From NCBI RefSeq assembly GCF_012295575.1, contig NZ_CP051180.1, forward strand, positions 2,170,001-2,234,000: a DNA stretch of 64,000 nt, given 5' to 3'. This document shows, piece after piece, positions 3,119 through 64,000 of this stretch (position 1 is its first letter; each line of letters starts with the position of its first letter). The notes under the pieces are model-generated. The model saw nothing but the letters and a program-made list of their open reading frames with translations, did no database searches and was not told the DNA's origin. This DNA is from Ferrimonas lipolytica (GTDB lineage Bacteria > Pseudomonadota > Gammaproteobacteria > Enterobacterales > Shewanellaceae). Made by a program: the position numbers and the translations under genes.

Positions 3119-3156
3119 AGTTGTGCTCCTTGCATAATAAAAAGACGGTGTAACAG

Positions 3157-3376
3157 TTACGTGTTGAGGTTTATATCAAGCCTTCCGGTCTACCGATTGC
3201 AGTACTCTTAAGAGGAGCTTCGCCCCCTTTGGAATCCCCCTTTGCCTTAGGTCACAGTCCAAAACGCTTCGCTGGACTGCTCCTATGCGGCAGAAGATCA
3301 ACGGCGGTAGTGCTTTCCCTTGTATCAAAACTCGCCTAGCCGGTACTTTACCAGCATTGGAAAGAACAACACTTAA
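3157..3376 (+). repeat. Dispersed palindromic repeat, copy A (220 bp, lacks internal module)
   Basis: This is one of four related copies in the window. The left end reads TTACGTGTTGAGG and the right end CAACACTTAA, giving imperfect terminal inverted repeats. Internal landmarks shared with the other copies are TTTATATCAAGCC, CTACCGATTGCAGTACTCTTAA, a G/C-rich GGAGCTTCGCCCCC hairpin, TTGCCTTAGGTC, a CAGTCCA/TGGACTG hairpin (3255-3261 with 3273-3279), GGCGGTAGTGCTTTCCC and CGCCTAGCCGGT. Relative to copies B and C it lacks about 45 bases carrying the GTCGCGGTGGCGAC hairpin. It has no convincing reading frame. It sits between the DUF885 start and the terminator of the TonB2 operon. Confidence 0.85.
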
Positions 3377-3393
3377 TTGGTACACAACATAAT

Positions 3394-3420
3394 AAAAAGC
3401 CCCGCAGTGCGGGGCTTTTT
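3394..3420 (-). terminator. Rho-independent terminator of the TonB2 operon
   Basis: A stem of AAAAAGCCCCGC and GCGGGGCTTTTT around a three-base loop lies 15 bp past the stop of the TPR gene. It has a run of T on both strands, so it can act in both directions. Confidence 0.9.
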
Positions 3421-3434
3421 GGTACTGAGATAAC

Positions 3435-4688
3435 TTATCTCACCGATACTTTTTTCCGCTTAGCGGTGTCTTCAATGTAAGACAACCAGCTCTTGGCATT
3501 TTTAGCCGTCTTACTATCTTTGGTCGCCGCCATACATGCTTTATAAGCAGACTTGAACTCATCTAGATAGAAGTGAGCTTGCGCTAAGATCATCTGTGCT
3601 TCACCAGTGCTCTTGAGGCCAGTGCCATCAAGTGCTTTGCGAACCGCAGTCTTTGCTTCACCGTAACGCTCACGCTCCATCAACAGACCAGCTTGACGCA
3701 TATAGTGCTTTGAGTTGCCGGACAGTTCGCCAGCTTCCCCATAGAACTTCACTGCTTTATCAATCTGTTTTGCCTGATGATAAGTGTTAGCCAACATCGA
3801 AACGGCGCCAACGTCACGCTCCACCAACCCATCTTTCAAGTATTGTTCTTGTAGCTGAGCTGACTTAAGCGGCACTTCATTCTGAGCGTAAAGCTGAGCT
3901 AGCATTTTGTACTCGCTCGCTTTCTCCAGAAAGCCATTACGGAAGGCAACGTCCATGGTGTACAAAGACTTTTTATAATCTTCACCCAACATGTACATCT
4001 GCGCTAACTGAACCCAAGCACGGCCTTCTTGCGGGAATAAGCGAACAATCTCTTCAGCAATTTTTGCTGCATTTTTGTATTGCTTAGTCTCGTAGTAGGC
4101 ACCCATCTTCAAGCTGTAAGGTGCTTTATTAACACGCTTTTGCAAGGCGATAGACTTATCAGCAAAGCTGATAGCTGGCTTGTATTCTTTCTTCTCGTAA
4201 TGCGCGCTCGCCATCCGCAAGTAAACGTTAACGTCTTCCTTACAGGTGAAGGTCATCCAATCTTGGTAGTACTTCAATGCGTCATCAAACTTACGCTCCG
4301 AGATACTCAGATCGGCCAACAACTTAATCGCGTTACCGTGATCGCTACCGCCAAGTTGGTTAATATCTACCGCCACCTTAAGGTGTTTCATTGCGGTATC
4401 TACCTTGCCATCTTTACCGGCGTACAAACTACCGATCATGCGCGAAACGTAAGCTTTATCGAAGTCACTGCTGGTTTTAATCTCCAGTAGGACTCCAAGC
4501 GCTTCATCAACTTGCTCGTTGCTGTAAAGCTCGTAGGCTTTCTGAACCTTCTTACCTACCCGCTCCGATACCGCACGACTCTTACGTTGGTCGATTGGAC
4601 ATTTTTCGGCGGCCAGTGCTGGCAACGTAATCGAGCCAGCAACGACGGTCAGCAATAAAGCAGGAATAAATTTGGTCTTCTTGAACAT
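3435..4688 (-). CDS. Periplasmic TPR protein of the TonB2 gene cluster
   Basis: A 417-residue protein with a Sec signal peptide (MFKKTKFIPALLLTVVAGS..LPALA, cleavage near residue 26) followed almost entirely by TPR-like helical hairpins (for example FDDALKYYQDW, YKPAISFADKSIAL, YKNAAKIAEEIVRLFP, YKKSLYTMDVAF, IDKAVKFYGEAGEL). Two cysteines near C30 and C149 could pair. It is the last gene of the DUF3450-TtpC-ExbB2-ExbD2-TonB2 operon, starting 14 bp after tonB, and is followed by a strong terminator. TPR proteins in this position are typical of Vibrio and Shewanella TonB2 clusters, where they are thought to assist the energy-transducing complex. The precise partner is not known. The start at 4688 is preceded by a good AGGAGG. 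Confidence 0.85.
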   Translation of the reverse strand: MFKKTKFIPALLLTVVAGSITLPALAAEKCPIDQRKSRAVSERVGKKVQKAYELYSNEQVDEALGVLLEIKTSSDFDKAYVSRMIGSLYAGKDGKVDTAMKHLKVAVDINQLGGSDHGNAIKLLADLSISERKFDDALKYYQDWMTFTCKEDVNVYLRMASAHYEKKEYKPAISFADKSIALQKRVNKAPYSLKMGAYYETKQYKNAAKIAEEIVRLFPQEGRAWVQLAQMYMLGEDYKKSLYTMDVAFRNGFLEKASEYKMLAQLYAQNEVPLKSAQLQEQYLKDGLVERDVGAVSMLANTYHQAKQIDKAVKFYGEAGELSGNSKHYMRQAGLLMERERYGEAKTAVRKALDGTGLKSTGEAQMILAQAHFYLDEFKSAYKACMAATKDSKTAKNAKSWLSYIEDTAKRKKVSVR

Positions 4689-14048: not shown

Positions 14049-14126
14049 GATAGCACTCCTTACTGAATGGGCTACGCACAACCTAAAGGATTAACTCAGT
14101 TTTGGCCAAAAAAAGGCGTGTACTAA

Positions 14127-14390
14127 TTAAGTGTTGTTGTTTCCAATGCTGTTAAATCACCGGCTAGGCACGTGCCAATACAAAGGGAAGCACTACCGCC
14201 GTTGCTCTTCTGCCGCATTAGAGCAGTCCAGCAAAGTGTTCGGGGCTGCGACCTAAGGCAAGGGAGATTCCAAAGGGGGCGAAGCTCCCCCAAAATGCAT
14301 ACAAGAATGTGCCGTCGCCACCGCGACATCCTCTGCCAACAGCACCGTAATCGGTAGAGCCAAAGGCTTGATATAAACCTCAACACTTAA
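14127..14390 (-). repeat. Dispersed palindromic repeat, copy B (264 bp, full length)
   Basis: This is the best-preserved copy: it begins TTAAGTGTTG and ends CAACACTTAA, an exact 10-bp terminal inverted repeat. It lies in reverse orientation to copies A and C. On its own strand it carries GTTGAGGTTTATATCAAGCC, the GTCGCGGTGGCGAC hairpin, a GGGGGAGCTTCGCCCCC hairpin, CCTTAGGTCGCAGCCCC...TGGACTG, GGCGGTAGTGCTTCCC and GCCTAGCCGGTG. It sits between the 5' end of one porin gene and the terminator of the other. The 87-residue frame across it is not conserved in the other copies, so the repeat is treated as non-coding. Confidence 0.9.
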
Positions 14391-14403
14391 CTATGACACA
14401 GCC

Positions 14404-14435
14404 AAAAAAAAACCACTGCCCTAAGGCAGTGGTTT
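14404..14435 (-). terminator. Rho-independent terminator of the second porin gene
   Basis: AACCACTGCC (14411-14420) and GGCAGTGGTT (14425-14434) form a perfect 10-bp stem with a CTAA loop, followed on the minus strand by a long T-run. Confidence 0.93.
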
Positions 14436-14457: not shown

Positions 14458-15498
14458 TTAGAAGTATACGCGAGCACCGATAGTGAAGTTAGAAGAGTCG
14501 TTGTCGTCGTACTCGTCTTCCAGGTCGAATTCGTAACCAGTGTAAGCAACAACTTGCTTAGCAATTGGGTACTCAACGAAAGCAGCTACAGTATCAACGC
14601 TTACGTTGTCAGAGTTGTTGTCGTCTTCAACGTGCTCGTAAGTAGTACCTACGCGCAGACCAGACTGCATGGTGTAAGCAACAGCAACGTTGTAAGCAAC
14701 TGCTTCTTCAAAGCCACCTAAGATGTTATCAGCAGTAGAGTAAGAACCCGCTGCGAAGAAACCTTTGTTGAAATCACCGTACTTGATGGACATTGCATCG
14801 ATGTCAGCGTCAACTTTTTTAGCGCCATCTACAGATTTTTCACCGGTAGACTGTGCGTAACCAACGGTAACACCCATGATTTCGTAAGACAGTGCAAACG
14901 CGATACGGTCATCGTAGTCAGTAGAATGTGCTGCAGGCAGCTCACCATCTTTCAGAGTCAAGGTGTCTTCTTCGTTGTCACCCTGCCATTGCAGACCGAT
15001 GTTGAATTTACCCATGTCACCAAAGTCGTGACCTTTACGGTAAGTCAATGCACGTTCTGCACGAGCAATACCCAGAGCAGCGTGATCGGTGTACAAGTAA
15101 TCGTTACCGTACTGGATAGATTGGTCAGCTACTAAAGCAACGTCACCAAATACGCCCCACTGTTGACCAACACGCATGGTGCCGTAAGTGTCGTGGCTTA
15201 CACCGATGTAACCTAGACGGTTGTAAAACAGATCGCCTTCTTGCTCAACGAAGTCTACGCCCCACTCAGCTTTCGCTTCCAGTGCAAAGCCGTTAGCCAT
15301 TTCACGGTTAACAGCAAAGTTTACACGGCCAGAGTTGTCATCAACTTTGGTGTCGCCGTCTTTTACGTCTTTAACCAAAACGGTGAAGTGGCCACCCATA
15401 GATACGGAGGTAGCGCCATCGTTGTACATTTCAACAGCTGAAGCGCTGGTTGCCATCATCAAAGCAGGGATAGCTACTGCAAGCAGAGTCTTTTTCAT
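14458..15498 (-). CDS. Gram-negative porin, OmpC/PhoE-like
   Basis: A 346-residue outer-membrane porin. It has a signal peptide MKKTLLAVAIPALMMATSASA (cleavage after residue 21), then MGGHFTVLVKDV, SGRVNFAVNREMANGFALEAKAEWGVDF, FYNRLGYIGVSHDTYGTMRVGQQWG and a C-terminal strand ...FTIGARVYF with the required terminal Phe. Internal strands repeat the alternating pattern of a 16-strand barrel. Acidic loops are prominent (EQEG, DDNNSDN, DLEDEYDDNDSSN). The codon choice looks strongly biased, as for a highly expressed protein (visual impression). It has a strong terminator and a 440-bp upstream region. The specific solute preference is unknown. Confidence 0.93.
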   Translation of the reverse strand: MKKTLLAVAIPALMMATSASAVEMYNDGATSVSMGGHFTVLVKDVKDGDTKVDDNSGRVNFAVNREMANGFALEAKAEWGVDFVEQEGDLFYNRLGYIGVSHDTYGTMRVGQQWGVFGDVALVADQSIQYGNDYLYTDHAALGIARAERALTYRKGHDFGDMGKFNIGLQWQGDNEEDTLTLKDGELPAAHSTDYDDRIAFALSYEIMGVTVGYAQSTGEKSVDGAKKVDADIDAMSIKYGDFNKGFFAAGSYSTADNILGGFEEAVAYNVAVAYTMQSGLRVGTTYEHVEDDNNSDNVSVDTVAAFVEYPIAKQVVAYTGYEFDLEDEYDDNDSSNFTIGARVYF

Positions 15499-50563: not shown

Positions 50564-50596
50564 TTGCAGCGGATAGTAATTAAAAGCTGTACACAG

Positions 50597-50855
50597 TGAA
50601 GTGGTTGAGGTTTATATCAAGCCTTCGGCTCTACCGATTGCAGTACTCTTAACGGGTTATGTCGCGGTGGCGACAGCACATTCTTGTATGCATTAGGGGG
50701 GAGCTTCGCCCCCCTTTAGAGTCCCCCTTGCCTTAGGTCGCAGCCCAAAACGCTTCGCTGGGCTGCGGCAAAAGAGCAACGGCAGTAGTGCTTTCCCCTT
50801 GTATCAAAACTCGCCTAGCCGGTGCTTTAACTGTATTAGAAAGAACAACACTTAG
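50597..50855 (+). repeat. Dispersed palindromic repeat, copy C (259 bp, near full length)
   Basis: This copy has the same orientation as copy A. The left end is degraded (TGAAGTGGTTGAGG) and the right end reads CAACACTTAG. It keeps TTTATATCAAGCC, the TGTCGC/GCGACA hairpin with a GGTG loop, CACATTCTTGTATGCATTAGG, a G6/C6 hairpin around AGCTTCG, TTGCCTTAGGTCG, CAGCCCA (50741-50747) paired with TGGGCTG (50759-50765), and CGCCTAGCCGGTGC. It lies in the convergent gap between the GGDEF-EAL gene and fadJ. The rest of this 447-bp gap holds the two terminators listed. Confidence 0.88.
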
Positions 50856-50877
50856 TTGCTGCACCGCCTAATTAAAG

Positions 50878-50913
50878 CGTTTCCACGCAGAGTAGCTAGT
50901 CTGTGTGGAAACG
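50878..50913 (-). terminator. Terminator hairpin overlapping the fadJ stop
   Basis: CGTTTCCAC (50878-50886) pairs with GTGGAAACG (50905-50913), and the stem extends inward through CAGA/TCTG. On the minus strand the stem begins inside the last fadJ codons and is followed by CTTTAATT. The fadJ stop codon lies in its loop. Confidence 0.6.
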
Positions 50914-53025
50914 GGCACCACTCTCAGCCATCTCAACCAACTTGGCGGCTGGCGCAAAACGGTCTCCAAACTGGCCTTGGTATTTGTTCAACTTCTCAAC
51001 CAATACCTTGGCGCCAAGGGTGTCGATATAACGGAAGGGGCCACCTAAGAATGGTGGGAAACCAATGCCAAAGATGGCACCGATATCGCCGTCACGCGCT
51101 GAGGCGATAATGCCCTCTTCCAAACAACGCACTGCTTCGTTAAGCATCTGCACGGTACAACGCTCAGCCAACTCGTCTTGCGACAACTTACCTGCTGGAG
51201 TAACGCCCAATACTTGGTAAACCGACTCATCAACCGGTTTAGCCCCCTTCTTCTTACTATCAAACTGATAGAAACCTCGACCGTTCTTCTTACCCTTACG
51301 GTCGTCCGCTAGCAACTTGTCAAAGGCTACCGGTGCGGCAAAGCGATCGCCCAGCTCTTTGGTCAAAATTGGAGCAATCTTAGCACCAACATCGATGCCT
51401 ACTTCGTCCAGTAAGGTTACCGGCCCTACTGGGAAACCAAACTTAACGATGGCTTTATCCAGTTGCTCAATCGGCTCGCCATCCAATATTAAGTTAGCTG
51501 CTTCGTTCATATACAACGCTAAGATACGGTTAACGTAAAAACCAGCACCGTCTTGTACCACGATCGGCGTCTTGCCCTGACGCTTAGCCAACTTAACCGT
51601 GGTGGCAATGGTTTCGGCTGAGGTCTTTTCGTGAGCGATGATCTCCACCAGTGGCATCTTTTCTACCGGAGAGAAATAGTGCAAACCAACCACGTTTTCT
51701 GGACGCTGTGCCGCTTCGGCAATCTGTCCGATTGGCAATGACGAGGTGTTAGAGGCAAAGATGGTGTTGTCGTTGCAGTTTGCTTCAACGTCTTTCACCA
51801 TCTGATGCTTAAGGTTTAAATCTTCAAATACAGCTTCGATAACGATATCAACATCTTTAACACCACTATAAGTCGTAGTGGTCGACAGCAGACTCATCTG
51901 TTTATCACGTTGCGATGCAGAGATTTGTTTACGCTTAACCCGCTGATCAACCTGCTTATAGGTGTACGCCAACGCATTTTGTAAGCCTTGCTCGGCAATA
52001 TCCTTAATGCGAGTGGGTACCTTAGCTTTCAGCGCCGATACCGAGGCGATACCACCCCCCATCAATCCACCGCCAAGCACCATCGCTTTATTAACTTTAC
52101 GTGGCTGTACATCACCAGCGCCGGTCTCTTTCTTCATCGCTGTGGTTGCAAAGAAAATTGAGCGCAATGCCGCCGACTCTGGGGATGAAACCAGCTCACC
52201 AAAGGCCTTTGCCTCAGCAACTAAGCCTTTATCCATGCCCTGCTCACGACCGGTCTTAACCACGTCAATGATCTTCTCTACCGCAGGGTAATTACCCTGA
52301 GTTTTCTTATAGGCTTGCTTAGCTGCTTGATCGTAAATGACATTGCGACCAATCGGCGTCGCTTCCAGCGCCTTGTTGATACCGCTCAACTTGGGTTCAA
52401 TAGTGCCGCGCTTGCCTTTCAACGCCCATTTTTTAGCAACCTGAACCAACACAGAATTCGGTACGGACTCATCTAAGATCCCTAACTTAGTCGCCTGTTT
52501 TGCACGTAGCTGCTTGCCAGCAAGCATCAATTCTAAACCTTTGGCAACACCGACAATTTGCGGTAATCGTTGAGTACCGCCGCCACCTGGCAGCAGCCCC
52601 AGTTGCGACTCAGGTAAACCAACAATGGTACTCGGCGCGTCGGAACCGATGCGGTAATCACAGGCAAGCGCCACCTCAAGACCGCCACCCAGACATGGGC
52701 CATGAATGGCTGCAACTACCGGGATGCTAAGCTCTTCAAACATGGCCAATACTTTGTGACCAGAGCGGGAGATATTCTCTGCGTCTTGCGCGGTTTTACA
52801 GGCCGCCAGCATGGTGATATCTGCACCAGCAATAAAGGAATCAGGCTTACCTGAAGCCAACACCGCTCCTTTAAGGCTGCTGTCGGCTTTGATTTCAGCA
52901 AGAATGTCGACCACTTCATCGTTGAAGCTATCGCGCAGAGTATTCATGGTTTCGCCGGGCACATCCATGGTGATAATGGCAATGCCATCTTCGTCTTTAT
53001 GCCAGCTAAAGGTCTTGTCAGTCAT
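50896..53025 (-). CDS. fadJ: FadJ, fatty acid oxidation complex alpha subunit
   Basis: A 709-residue multifunctional enzyme with enoyl-CoA hydratase/isomerase (about 1-190) and 3-hydroxyacyl-CoA dehydrogenase (about 300-700) activities. Hydratase motifs are SFIAGADI and GPCLGGGLEVALACDYRI with E117 and E139 (GLPESQLGLLPGGGGTQRLP). The NAD site is VLGGGLMGGGIAS, and the catalytic His lies in GLHYFSPVEKMPLVEI. The ATG at 53025 with GGAGG in front is preferred to the frame start at 53076, which overlaps fadI. fadI ends 2 bp before. It works with FadI; the GGGGTQRLP and overall layout fit FadJ rather than FadB. Confidence 0.94.
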   Translation of the reverse strand: MTDKTFSWHKDEDGIAIITMDVPGETMNTLRDSFNDEVVDILAEIKADSSLKGAVLASGKPDSFIAGADITMLAACKTAQDAENISRSGHKVLAMFEELSIPVVAAIHGPCLGGGLEVALACDYRIGSDAPSTIVGLPESQLGLLPGGGGTQRLPQIVGVAKGLELMLAGKQLRAKQATKLGILDESVPNSVLVQVAKKWALKGKRGTIEPKLSGINKALEATPIGRNVIYDQAAKQAYKKTQGNYPAVEKIIDVVKTGREQGMDKGLVAEAKAFGELVSSPESAALRSIFFATTAMKKETGAGDVQPRKVNKAMVLGGGLMGGGIASVSALKAKVPTRIKDIAEQGLQNALAYTYKQVDQRVKRKQISASQRDKQMSLLSTTTTYSGVKDVDIVIEAVFEDLNLKHQMVKDVEANCNDNTIFASNTSSLPIGQIAEAAQRPENVVGLHYFSPVEKMPLVEIIAHEKTSAETIATTVKLAKRQGKTPIVVQDGAGFYVNRILALYMNEAANLILDGEPIEQLDKAIVKFGFPVGPVTLLDEVGIDVGAKIAPILTKELGDRFAAPVAFDKLLADDRKGKKNGRGFYQFDSKKKGAKPVDESVYQVLGVTPAGKLSQDELAERCTVQMLNEAVRCLEEGIIASARDGDIGAIFGIGFPPFLGGPFRYIDTLGAKVLVEKLNKYQGQFGDRFAPAAKLVEMAESGARFHTD

Positions 53026-53027
53026 TG

Positions 53028-54332
53028 TTATTCTACCTCCACGATCATCGCTGCACCGAGACCACCTGCGGCACAAGCAGTCGTTAGGCCAGTACCGCCA
53101 CCACGGCGTTTCAACTCATTACACAATTGGGTGATTAAGCGGGCGCCAGTAGCTGCAAATGGATGACCATAAGCCAGTGAACCACCGGTAACGTTAAACT
53201 TGTCCATATCGATATCGCCGATGATCTCGCTGCGACCGAGCTTCTCTTGAGCAAACTTCTTACTGCCGAACATCTTCATGTTGGCCAATGCTTGTGCAGC
53301 AAAGGCTTCGTGCATCTCGATAAGATCAAGATCCGCCAGCTTCATACCCGCACGCTCTAGCGCCATTGGCGTCGCGTAAGAAGGTCCCATCAACAAGTCT
53401 TCCCACACATCAATAGCACTGAATGCATAACTACGGATGTAGCCGATAGGATCATAACCCATTGCCTTGGCTCGGCTTTCAGACATCATCAGCAAGGCTG
53501 AAGCACCGTCAGTCAGTGGGGTTGAGTTAGCCGCCGATACAGTACCGTGCTTACGATCAAACACCGGCTTTAACTTAGCCAGCTTTTCCAACTGAATCGA
53601 TTCACGAACGTTGTTATCGCGCTCAATAAATTGTTTGTATGGCGGTACATGACAGGTCATCACTTCGTTAGCCAGTACACCAGATTCCCACGTTTTATAA
53701 GCTAACTGGTGCGAACGAACGGTCAGCTCATCCTGAGCCTGACGGGTAATACCATGGCTTTTGGCCATCTGCTCTGCGGTTTGTCCCATCGACAGGCCGG
53801 TAGAAAACTCAGCAACTGCCGGTGGCTCCGGCGCCAAATCTCGGGGACGGAGCTTAGAAATAATCGATAAACGGTCACTAAGGCTGCGAGCCTTAGTTAA
53901 ATCAACCAACGCATGCGCCAGACGCTTGCTCACACCGATAGGCAGTACCGAGCTGGAATCCGCACCACCAGCAATACCGACTTCAACCGAGCCAGCCATA
54001 ATAGACTCAGCCACATTAACGGTTGATTGGAATGAGGTCGCACAGGCGCGGCTAACGGAATAGGCATCGGTACCAACATTCATGCCCGTGCCTAATACAA
54101 TTTCACGGGCAATGTTCGGTGCCTTTGGCATCTGTACAACTTGGCCATACACCACTTGATCGATAATTGCCGGATCGATTTCGGTACGAGCGAGTAACTC
54201 TGATACCACCATCTTGCCCATATCCAACGCCGAGATCCCGTGAAAGGCGGTTGCTTGACGCGCAAACGGAGTACGGAGTCCAGAAACAATGGCTATTCGA
54301 TCTCCCGCCGCAGTTTTCAATTGTTGCCTCAT
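53028..54332 (-). CDS. fadI: FadI, 3-ketoacyl-CoA thiolase (beta subunit)
   Basis: A 434-residue thiolase that cleaves 3-ketoacyl-CoA in beta-oxidation, partner of FadJ. The nucleophilic Cys97 is in [13 protein letters not shown]. The second region is [19 protein letters not shown], the His is in [18 protein letters not shown], and the end has the second catalytic Cys in [18 protein letters not shown]. The length is that of E. coli FadI (436). It is the promoter-proximal gene of fadIJ. A FadR-like site lies about 40-57 bp upstream. Confidence 0.95.
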
Positions 54333-63123: not shown

Positions 63124-63143
63124 AAGGCCTCTACTGAGGCCTT
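63124..63143 (+). terminator. Hairpin after the ECF sigma/DUF3379 pair
   Basis: AAGGCCTC (63124-63131) and GAGGCCTT (63136-63143) form an 8-bp stem with a TACT loop, 52 bp past the stop, followed by ATTACT. Moderate strength. Confidence 0.65.
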
Positions 63144-63161
63144 ATTACTGCTGTGTGCCAA

Positions 63162-63236
63162 CTAAGTGCTGTTGTTGCTAATACTGTTAAAGCACCGGCT
63201 AGGCGAGTTTTGATACAAGGGCAAAGCACTACCGCC
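63162..63236 (-). repeat. Dispersed palindromic repeat, copy D (truncated, 75 bp)
   Basis: This copy keeps only one end of the element, in the orientation of copy B: CTAAGTGCTG, then TTGTTGCTAATACTGTTAAAGC, ACCGGCTAGGCGAG, TTTTGATACAAGGGCAAAGCACTACCGCC. After 63236 the similarity stops abruptly. Confidence 0.8.
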
Positions 63237-63247
63237 TGTAGGGGACG

Positions 63248-63390
63248 AATAAAGTTTCATACTGAACTCGACTGCACGCCCATCCAGCCGCTACCTAAAG
63301 TCTGTGTAGAAAATTAAAGTATCATACTCAACCATCGGTCATGCTCATTAGCACCTCAGTATTGAGTAATAAAGATGCATACTCGACCCG
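63248..63390 (+). repeat. Three degenerate AATAAAG-N3-CATACT repeats
   Basis: AATAAAGTTTCATACT (CATACT at 63258-63263), AATTAAAGTATCATACT (63323-63328) and AATAAAGATGCATACT (63378-63383) recur at 65- and 55-base spacing, the last two followed by CRACC. They lie directly after truncated repeat copy D in a gene-free stretch (63072-63547) that looks like the remains of mobile or repeat DNA. No reading frame crosses them convincingly. Confidence 0.5.
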
Positions 63391-63507
63391 ATGCTGCATG
63401 TTCGATGGTTATCTAGCCAAGGACCGGATCGTGCCCAAAGGGGACACTCGCCAAGTCCGGGGCAACGACAGCTTTGGCGCCAAAAGGGGTCATTCAGCAG
63501 ATGTAAC

Positions 63508-63530
63508 AAAGCCCGCGTAATGCGGGCTTT
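63508..63530 (-). terminator. Rho-independent terminator after the orphan GlyGly-CTERM frame
   Basis: AAAGCCCGC (63508-63516) and GCGGGCTTT (63522-63530) form a 9-bp stem with a five-base loop and short T-tracts on both sides. It serves the minus-strand frame or permease gene that ends just upstream. Confidence 0.8.
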
Positions 63531-63547
63531 GGAACTAGGCATCAGAT

Positions 63548-63787
63548 TTAGCCGCGACGACGGCGCAGACCAGCAATGGTCATCATGCTGAGCAGGTCGA
63601 ACAAGCTAAGGGAACCACTGTCGCTGTCCTTGCCTCCGCCGTCAGGGCCGTCAGGGCCGTCAGGCTTATTGATGTCGGAGTCGTCACCGGTAGCGTTATC
63701 ATCGTCACACCAGTCCACATTGCCGCAGGCGTTAGCACCGCACATGCGGCCAGCACATACGCTCAACGTCCGCGACGCCGTCGCCAA
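63548..63787 (-). pseudogene. Orphan GlyGly-CTERM tail after the permease gene, probable remnant
   Basis: A 79-codon frame begins at TTG six bases after the permease stop, in the same frame, without a signal peptide. It has five cysteines in the first 27 residues and a PDGPDGPDGGG stretch. It ends GGGKDSDSGSLSLFDLLSMMTIAGLRRRRG, the Gly-rich, hydrophobic, Arg-cluster plan of a GlyGly-CTERM sorting signal. A neighbouring frame upstream encodes GIGDGVADVE, reminiscent of calcium-binding thrombospondin-3 repeats, suggesting a frameshifted remnant of a larger surface protein. A functional short protein is less likely because export is impossible without a signal. Confidence 0.5.
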
Positions 63788-63793
63788 TACCCG

Positions 63794-64000
63794 TTAAGCC
63801 ACTAAGTTGTATAACAGTCCGGTTGAAATCGCCATGGTGAATACCACCAGCAGGAACACGGCAATCAACTTATTCTTGAACAGAGACTTCAACAAAATCA
63901 CCTCGGTCAGACTGGCACCGGCACTGCCGACGATCAGCGCAAGCAATGCGCCCATGCTCATGCCTTTGGCGATCAGCACTGAACTCAGTGGGATCAGCGA
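63794..64000 (-). CDS. C-terminal end of a membrane permease (ArsP/YraQ-like), gene continues outside window
   Basis: The frame is open to the end of the window, so only the last 68 residues are seen. They contain two hydrophobic helices: LIPLSSVLIAKGMSMGALLALIVGSAGASLTEVILLKSLF and AVFLLVVFTMAISTGLLYNLV. The helix-loop spacing and the GSAGASLTEVILLKSLF segment resemble the C terminus of ArsP_1/DUF318 permeases (YraQ type), which move metal or arsenic compounds in some members. With so little sequence the substrate cannot be judged. Confidence 0.6.
   Translation of the reverse strand, partial: SLIPLSSVLIAKGMSMGALLALIVGSAGASLTEVILLKSLFKNKLIAVFLLVVFTMAISTGLLYNLVA

Follow-up and report, generated by a model that had tools for sequence, protein, structure and literature searches.

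A high-copy MITE with IS1595-type ends in Ferrimonas lipolytica is commonly inserted in the U-tracts of intrinsic terminators

The repeat that recurs between the genes of Ferrimonas lipolytica is, in our reading, a non-autonomous MITE of the IS1595 family that was moved in trans, that had the U-tract of terminators as its commonest target and that now persists as the fossil of a burst, a reading to which we assign a probability of roughly 0.86. It was followed up from four copies in the window, the stretch of 64,000 nucleotides analysed here (G000:C1:2170001-2234000), through a genome of 4,133,133 bp in a single contig.

Structurally, the aligned copies yield a non-coding consensus of 291 bp with the TIRs GGCTGTGTMMCARYTAAGTGTTG at both ends. 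An earlier note, made from the letters of the window, had taken TTAAGTGTTG...CAACACTTAA to be the ends of the element; these sequences hold as the inner part of the terminal repeat and not as its true ends, since an alignment of 30 copies with their flanks showed similarity extending beyond them to GGCTGTG...CACAGCC, outer ends that each element carries, in some as a decayed form. The same note had anticipated a high copy number and had made its reading depend on further copies in the genome, and these are plentiful: TTTATATCAAGCC occurs 136 times genome-wide at up to one mismatch, and the end pattern GGCTGTGTMMCARYTAAGTGTTG 400 times (214+186) at up to three mismatches, with 0 occurrences of either in the reversed controls. 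The number of ends detected per element was 1.83 at 30 BLAST-picked loci, a rate that is if anything high, as it comes from the best matches to copy C, and 400 ends at this rate therefore correspond to ~218 copies (about 200), or roughly 1.5% of the genome, with badly decayed copies left out. A query with the inner part of copy C gave at least 44 matches, and 40 of 323 first-look candidates were scored. Target-site duplications, also to be looked for, were found as 8-bp repeats: among 74 copies with both ends, the two sides agree at 8/8 positions in 25, at 7/8 in 22, at 6/8 in 13 and at fewer in 14, which puts 47/74 copies at 7/8 or better; shuffles of the right flanks among copies gave 2.7 such copies on average and never more than 9. 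The target logo reads S-W8-S, with a weak sequence preference. The repeat is thus short, non-coding, bounded by TIRs, flanked by a target duplication and dispersed in many copies, as a MITE is. Three copies lie in one orientation within about 900 bp at G000:C1:909390-910286 (L081, L016), perhaps through local duplication or through repeated insertion beside an earlier copy.

Within the window, all four copies were found where they had first been noted, between long open reading frames, and all four adjoin a stem-loop of −14 to −19 kcal/mol; each of the four was read and its place checked. Copy A (3144..3390, plus strand), an internally deleted form of 247 bp, is flanked by the exact duplication aataaaaa (3136-3143 and 3391-3398) and sits in the U-tract behind GCCCCGC..GCGGGGC, the intrinsic terminator stem (3399..3415, minus strand; −19.0 kcal/mol) that follows a TPR-protein gene (3435-4688, minus strand). 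Copy B (14115..14403, minus strand; 289 bp) has the duplication caaaaaaa/aaaaaaaa, which matches at 7/8 positions (14107-14114 and 14404-14411), and adjoins the stem-loop AAACCACTGCCTTAGGGCAGTGGTTT with its U-tract (14410..14435, minus strand; −17.4 kcal/mol), the terminator of a porin gene (14458-15498, minus strand) that matches Porin_1. Copy C (50585..50868, plus strand; 284 bp) lies between exact copies of taattaaa (50577-50584 and 50869-50876), next to a stem-loop and U-tract TTTAATTA (50876..50919, minus strand; −16.1 kcal/mol), whose stem extends into the end of a 3HCDH/ECH gene of 726 aa (50896-53076, minus strand). Copy D had been described as truncated, whereas it is whole and was split at 63237 by an insertion of 2,172 bp: its first part lies at 63149..63236 (minus strand), with the duplication cttattac at 63141-63148, and its second half was found beyond the window at G000:C1:2235414-2235617, where its terminal CACAGCC is followed by a second copy of the duplication at its start, CTTATTAC. 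The target of copy D was a terminator-like stem-loop, AAGGCCTCTACTGAGGCCTT followed by ATTAC (63124..63143, plus strand; −14.0 kcal/mol).

The insertion that splits copy D (L257, G000:C1:2233237-2235408; its left part, with no strand assigned, at 63237..64000 of the window) is itself a non-autonomous element, with a 5-bp duplication ccgcc, the left copy of which lies at 63232-63236, and with ends TGTAGGGGACGAATAAAG and CTTTATTCCTCTCCTACA that contain repeated AATAAAG..CATACT-like units. It resembles a Tn7-like element; among its ORFs are a 304-aa ArsP_1 permease and a 98-aa HTH_20 protein, and none was recognised as a transposase.

Genome-wide, the association with terminators was measured on 60 of the 74 both-ended copies, leaving out the 14 with a duplication below 6/8, and against non-coding controls defined by ORF length only. 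A stem-loop at or below −10 kcal/mol, no longer than 35 nt and with its end between positions −4 and +3 relative to the duplication, was present at 35/60 sites, compared with 99/600 AT-rich non-ORF 8-mers (Fisher p = 8e-12) and 21/300 shuffled flanks (p = 3e-18). With stem-loops of up to 46 nt and a broader AT-rich non-ORF control, the duplication is abutted in 41/60 copies versus 276/888 controls (p = 1e-8), a control baseline of 31% that probably reflects both real terminators in non-ORF sequence and the lenient setting. The difference depends on the composition of the duplication: for those with at least six T or at least six A it is 30/34 versus 65/195 (p = 1.5e-9), for those with five T or A 6/12 versus 78/264, and for those with fewer than five there is no difference (5/14 versus 133/429). 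The terminator association therefore rests on the T/A-tract sites. In 34/39 scorable cases the stem lies where the tract reads as a U-tract behind it. Even at the wide setting 19/60 sites are without an adjoining stem-loop, and terminators are therefore preferred and not required.

Evolutionarily, the ends of the MITE point to the IS1595 family. The suggestion that the repeat is a MITE moved by a transposase encoded elsewhere held as to kind, given the TIRs, the 8-bp duplications, the lack of a gene and the IS1595 remnants described here, from which we infer its mobilisation. Searching the genome with the PF12762 (IS1595 DDE) profile gave one locus, with 2 stops inside, which is a decayed IS of 1,029 bp with TIRs GGCTGTGTCTTAATTAGCTGTTG / CAACAGTTAACTCAAACACAGCC and a duplication tattaaaa/tattaaag that matches at 7/8 positions; NF033547 picked up this locus as two pieces and, at a score under the cut-off, a second place. 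The second IS1595 remnant (L293, G000:C1:3351056-3351494), of 439 bp and with ends GGCTGTGTCGCAGTTAACTGTTG / CAACAGCTAATTAAGACACAGCC, keeps both ends of the gene without its middle and showed no matching duplication at its flanks. Where a transposase gene flanked by the same termini was to be sought, the genome thus offers two broken remnants of the IS1595 family whose ends are of the same kind as those of the MITE. On its own account, L293 is a natural deletion derivative with intact ends, the interior of which, by reading, is unlike that of the abundant MITE.

PF12762 matches occur in 4/14 Ferrimonas genomes, and an intact relative is encoded in F. futtsuensis (G008), where a 315-aa protein (100% in 4 records) scores 185 bits against NF033547 (cut-off 75) and 42.9 bits against PF12762 (cut-off 27); the gene pieces of the decayed 1,029-bp IS are 58-82% identical to this protein and those of L293 57 and 71%. 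Ends starting GGCTGTGT and an 8-bp duplication are what the MITE has in common with the IS1595 family (NF033547, PF12762); more closely, GGCTGTGT and TTA..TGTTG are common to the MITE, both remnants in its own genome and the left end of the F. futtsuensis IS, the last of which was, like the ends of the copies in the congener G010 described below, taken from reading the sequence and not from automatic end-finding. It differs from the family in having no transposase and an interior unrelated to the two compared IS: the consensus shares only 8-9-bp matches with the decayed IS or the F. futtsuensis IS, and an origin by deletion from either is not supported. MITEs need not be deletion products, and an interior derived from an IS marks only one sub-type of them. 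Read plainly, this is a MITE whose IS1595 ends enclose an interior related to neither of the compared IS.

Mechanistically, we posit that an IS1595 transposase acting in trans would have used the GGCTGTG... ends of the MITE to carry it into A/T-rich targets of 8 bp that have G/C-rich flanks. A terminator, with its GC stem and then its U-tract, would supply such a target, and U-tracts that immediately follow intrinsic terminator stems are the commonest targets of this kind in the genome. With 8 bp duplicated, each side would receive a copy of the tract and the stem-loop would keep its U-tract; the terminator should therefore stay whole and the insertion be cheap, and at such a low cost about 200 copies could accumulate between genes. 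The transposase gene remnants in the genome being broken, the family would be an extinct burst.

The excess at terminators could come about through choice by the transposase or through selection sparing such sites, and static genomes are compatible with both. Under the second account, any A/T-rich 8-mer would be taken, and purifying selection would clear genes and promoters and leave the terminators; we regard it as a serious possibility, though a somewhat improbable one, and the weak sequence content of the S-W8-S logo is in keeping with it. Less easily accommodated is the neighbourhood of the insertions. We scored alternatives within 150 bp of each site, with a motif score no lower than that of the site minus 1, or than the sites' 25th percentile if lower, using a target motif derived from the tested sites themselves, and 68/297 of these alternatives abut a stem-loop versus 35/60 of the sites; for the 58 sites with an alternative, 35 were observed against a conditional expectation of 19.75 (sd 3.1). 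This comparison favours some real preference, and the register of the insertions, exactly at the base of the stem, is not readily explained by selection alone.

Related elements in other genomes bear on the same question. Both visible left flanks of the F. futtsuensis IS consist of a stem and CTTTTTTG, and in G010 at least 5/10 of the TIR-bearing copies read adjoin a stem (L047, L049, L051, L055, L057). In a set of 28 loci of IS1595 relatives from named genomes, with end-finding on 18 and on L124 and with the ends of L136 and L124 judged spurious, 7/9 loci with credible ends have a stem-loop at or below −10 kcal/mol (six in Telluria antibiotica, one in Massilia pinisoli), while L135 and L146 are above the threshold. 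IS1595 relatives were also matched in 121 plasmid records. Across the order, we took 50 IS1595 loci together with 50 loci of a control family, ISL3; ends were found for 25 and 20, and removing duplicate places (one IS1595, two ISL3) left 24 and 18 distinct sites. Such a stem at or below −10 kcal/mol adjoins 8/24 of the IS1595 sites, from 4/14 genomes, with 5/5 in G162 and 0/7 in G024, and none was present at the examined sites of the 10/14 other genomes; the address is therefore not a property of the whole IS1595 family, and the 0/7 of G024 is also what the account by selection can draw on. In the IS1595 elements of G024 (L219-L225), CTG precedes the duplication at a distance of one base in 6/7 and ACAG immediately follows it in 5/7, a palindromic flank motif. 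In ISL3, 12/18 distinct sites adjoin a stem-loop, all 12 in two of five genomes (G098 9/9, G119 3/5, the other three 0/4), and we accordingly rejected terminator targeting specific to IS1595; that another family with 8-bp A/T-rich duplications has the same address would again fit selection. The ISL3 copies seen in terminator U-tracts are L188, L191, L237-L246, L248 and L252 (G098, G119). We put forward only tentatively, with the balance tipping slightly against it, that some IS1595 and, independently, some ISL3 transposases choose terminator U-tracts as a safe address, at which passengers such as this MITE could reach hundreds of copies at little cost; the cue could be the stem, the T-tract beside it, or an RNA polymerase that pauses or terminates there.

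Terminators at the places of two window copies are also present in species that have no copy there. At the place of copy A, a GC stem and T-tract come after the best match to the gene (58-88% identity) in 13/13 congeners, none of which has a MITE in the 330 bases read, and at that of copy C (gene 70-85% identity) a terminator-like stem occurs within the 130 bases read in 13/13 congeners, with no MITE visible in those bases; the comparison is at species level, of a terminator without the element at the place and not of base-for-base empty sites. A pattern flag at L280 was discarded as a MITE, its genome (G013) having no match to the element query. These observations weigh on the idea that the MITE was itself co-opted as a transcription terminator or insulator, its copies at gene ends being kept by selection, which would account for the clustering of copies at terminators and could draw on the ability of TIRs and T-tract to pair; with a terminator already in place in congeners without the MITE, copies A and C missing from the matching places of all 13, and an element orientation indifferent to the T strand (27/54), we consider it very improbable.

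Functionally, the copies might also be thought to work as RNA. The sole frame tested for a peptide, which starts with GTG, covers copy B at 14123-14386 and would encode 87 aa, was without a Pfam match at E up to 1 and was rejected as coding, in agreement with the earlier view that the family encodes no conserved peptide. The alternative raised alongside the MITE, a structured RNA or REP-like repeat, has little support: Rfam gave 0 matches in the window at gathering thresholds, and the RNAalifold consensus fold of 55 copies reaches −7.56 kcal/mol with a compensatory change in 1/18 pairs. In five named helices, 6 pairs show two-sided change versus 4.9 in shuffles (161/500 shuffles as high), the covariation score is 0.078 versus 0.070 (5/500 as high) and 89.8% versus 89.2% of cells are paired (1/500 as high). 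Cells with two-sided change number 20 versus 10.9 (0/500 as high), of which 14 belong to a single pair (T-A to C-G) and could go back to one inherited change; related sequences can exceed such shuffles without structure, and inheritance within subfamilies can also explain the excess. Retention for a folded transcript, whether as a structured non-coding RNA or as a REP-like element, would gain from the two-sided cells, from a covariation score that tops nearly all shuffles and from the fold of the consensus to −111.6 kcal/mol on a single strand, a value taken without a shuffle control, and is scarcely credible beside the weak alignment fold, the empty Rfam search and the duplications and scattered sites that fit a transposon.

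In distribution, the family is narrow: among 40 genomes (own included), the element query matches only its own genome and the congener G010, with no match in the other 12 congeners at E 0.001. The related elements in G010 measure about 275 and 530-620 bp and have ends of the same type, and the longer relatives (L047, L049, L057, L061) have IS1595-type ends and an extra central block that has no match to the window's MITE. Some copies of the MITE core in G010 seemed to be without TIRs, and a second mobile element of that core was considered and set aside, as L037 and L053, when read, proved to have TIR-like ends in a decayed form. In F. lipolytica, the 55 aligned copies (from 66 copies of 240-310 bp, 11 having been left out by hand) form at least two sequence groups by eye, with a nearest-neighbour identity of 0.912 at the median and 0.961 at the maximum. 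As the partners are broken and even the closest pair is 96.1% identical, the family looks like a past burst, and it is probably a fossil that no longer moves.

The comparison with known systems is by description. Haloquadratum walsbyi and Ferrimonas belong to different domains. An IS1595-type MITE has already been published from the former, an ISHwa6-related element that is likewise short, with IS1595 ends and an 8-bp duplication, and that is set apart by its 165 bp and 7 copies from the 291 bp and about 200 copies found here (PMC3852290). Abundant bacterial MITEs such as Correia (>120 copies), ERIC (up to 711 in Photorhabdus) and Chunjie are similarly high-copy, intergenic and non-coding, and a terminator address is not described for them in the excerpts compared (PMC10969869). 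Among the interspersed repeats of the pneumococcus (SPRITE, RUP and BOX), SPRITE is enriched near the 3' ends of genes; it itself resembles a terminator, whereas the Ferrimonas MITE occupies the tract of a terminator that is also present in congeners lacking the MITE (PMC3049150). Precedents for a functional intergenic landmark as a target exist in the IS that target REP sequences (PMC1525189) and in the TnGBS/ISLre2/ISKra4 elements that insert upstream of promoters (PMC3942029), with REPs or promoters, and not terminator U-tracts, as the landmarks. A genome survey found IS1595 and ISL3, among others, over-represented between tandem-oriented genes and gave, for IS1595 in Beta/Gammaproteobacteria, a distance of 500-550 bp to the nearest gene, with no mention of terminator targeting in the parts consulted (PMC9208149). 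In searches of the open-licence PMC literature we recognised no description of IS1595 or MITE insertion in terminators. The repeat itself is a further IS1595-type MITE, and what sets it apart is its terminator address, which was measured against controls and recurs in some relatives.

If selection alone placed the copies, they would still be a clean case of where insertions are tolerated. If terminators are instead the address sought, this would explain how hundreds of copies of an intergenic parasite are carried with operons unbroken, would yield a testable prediction of the sites that some IS1595 and ISL3 elements take, and might offer a target usable for low-impact genome insertion.
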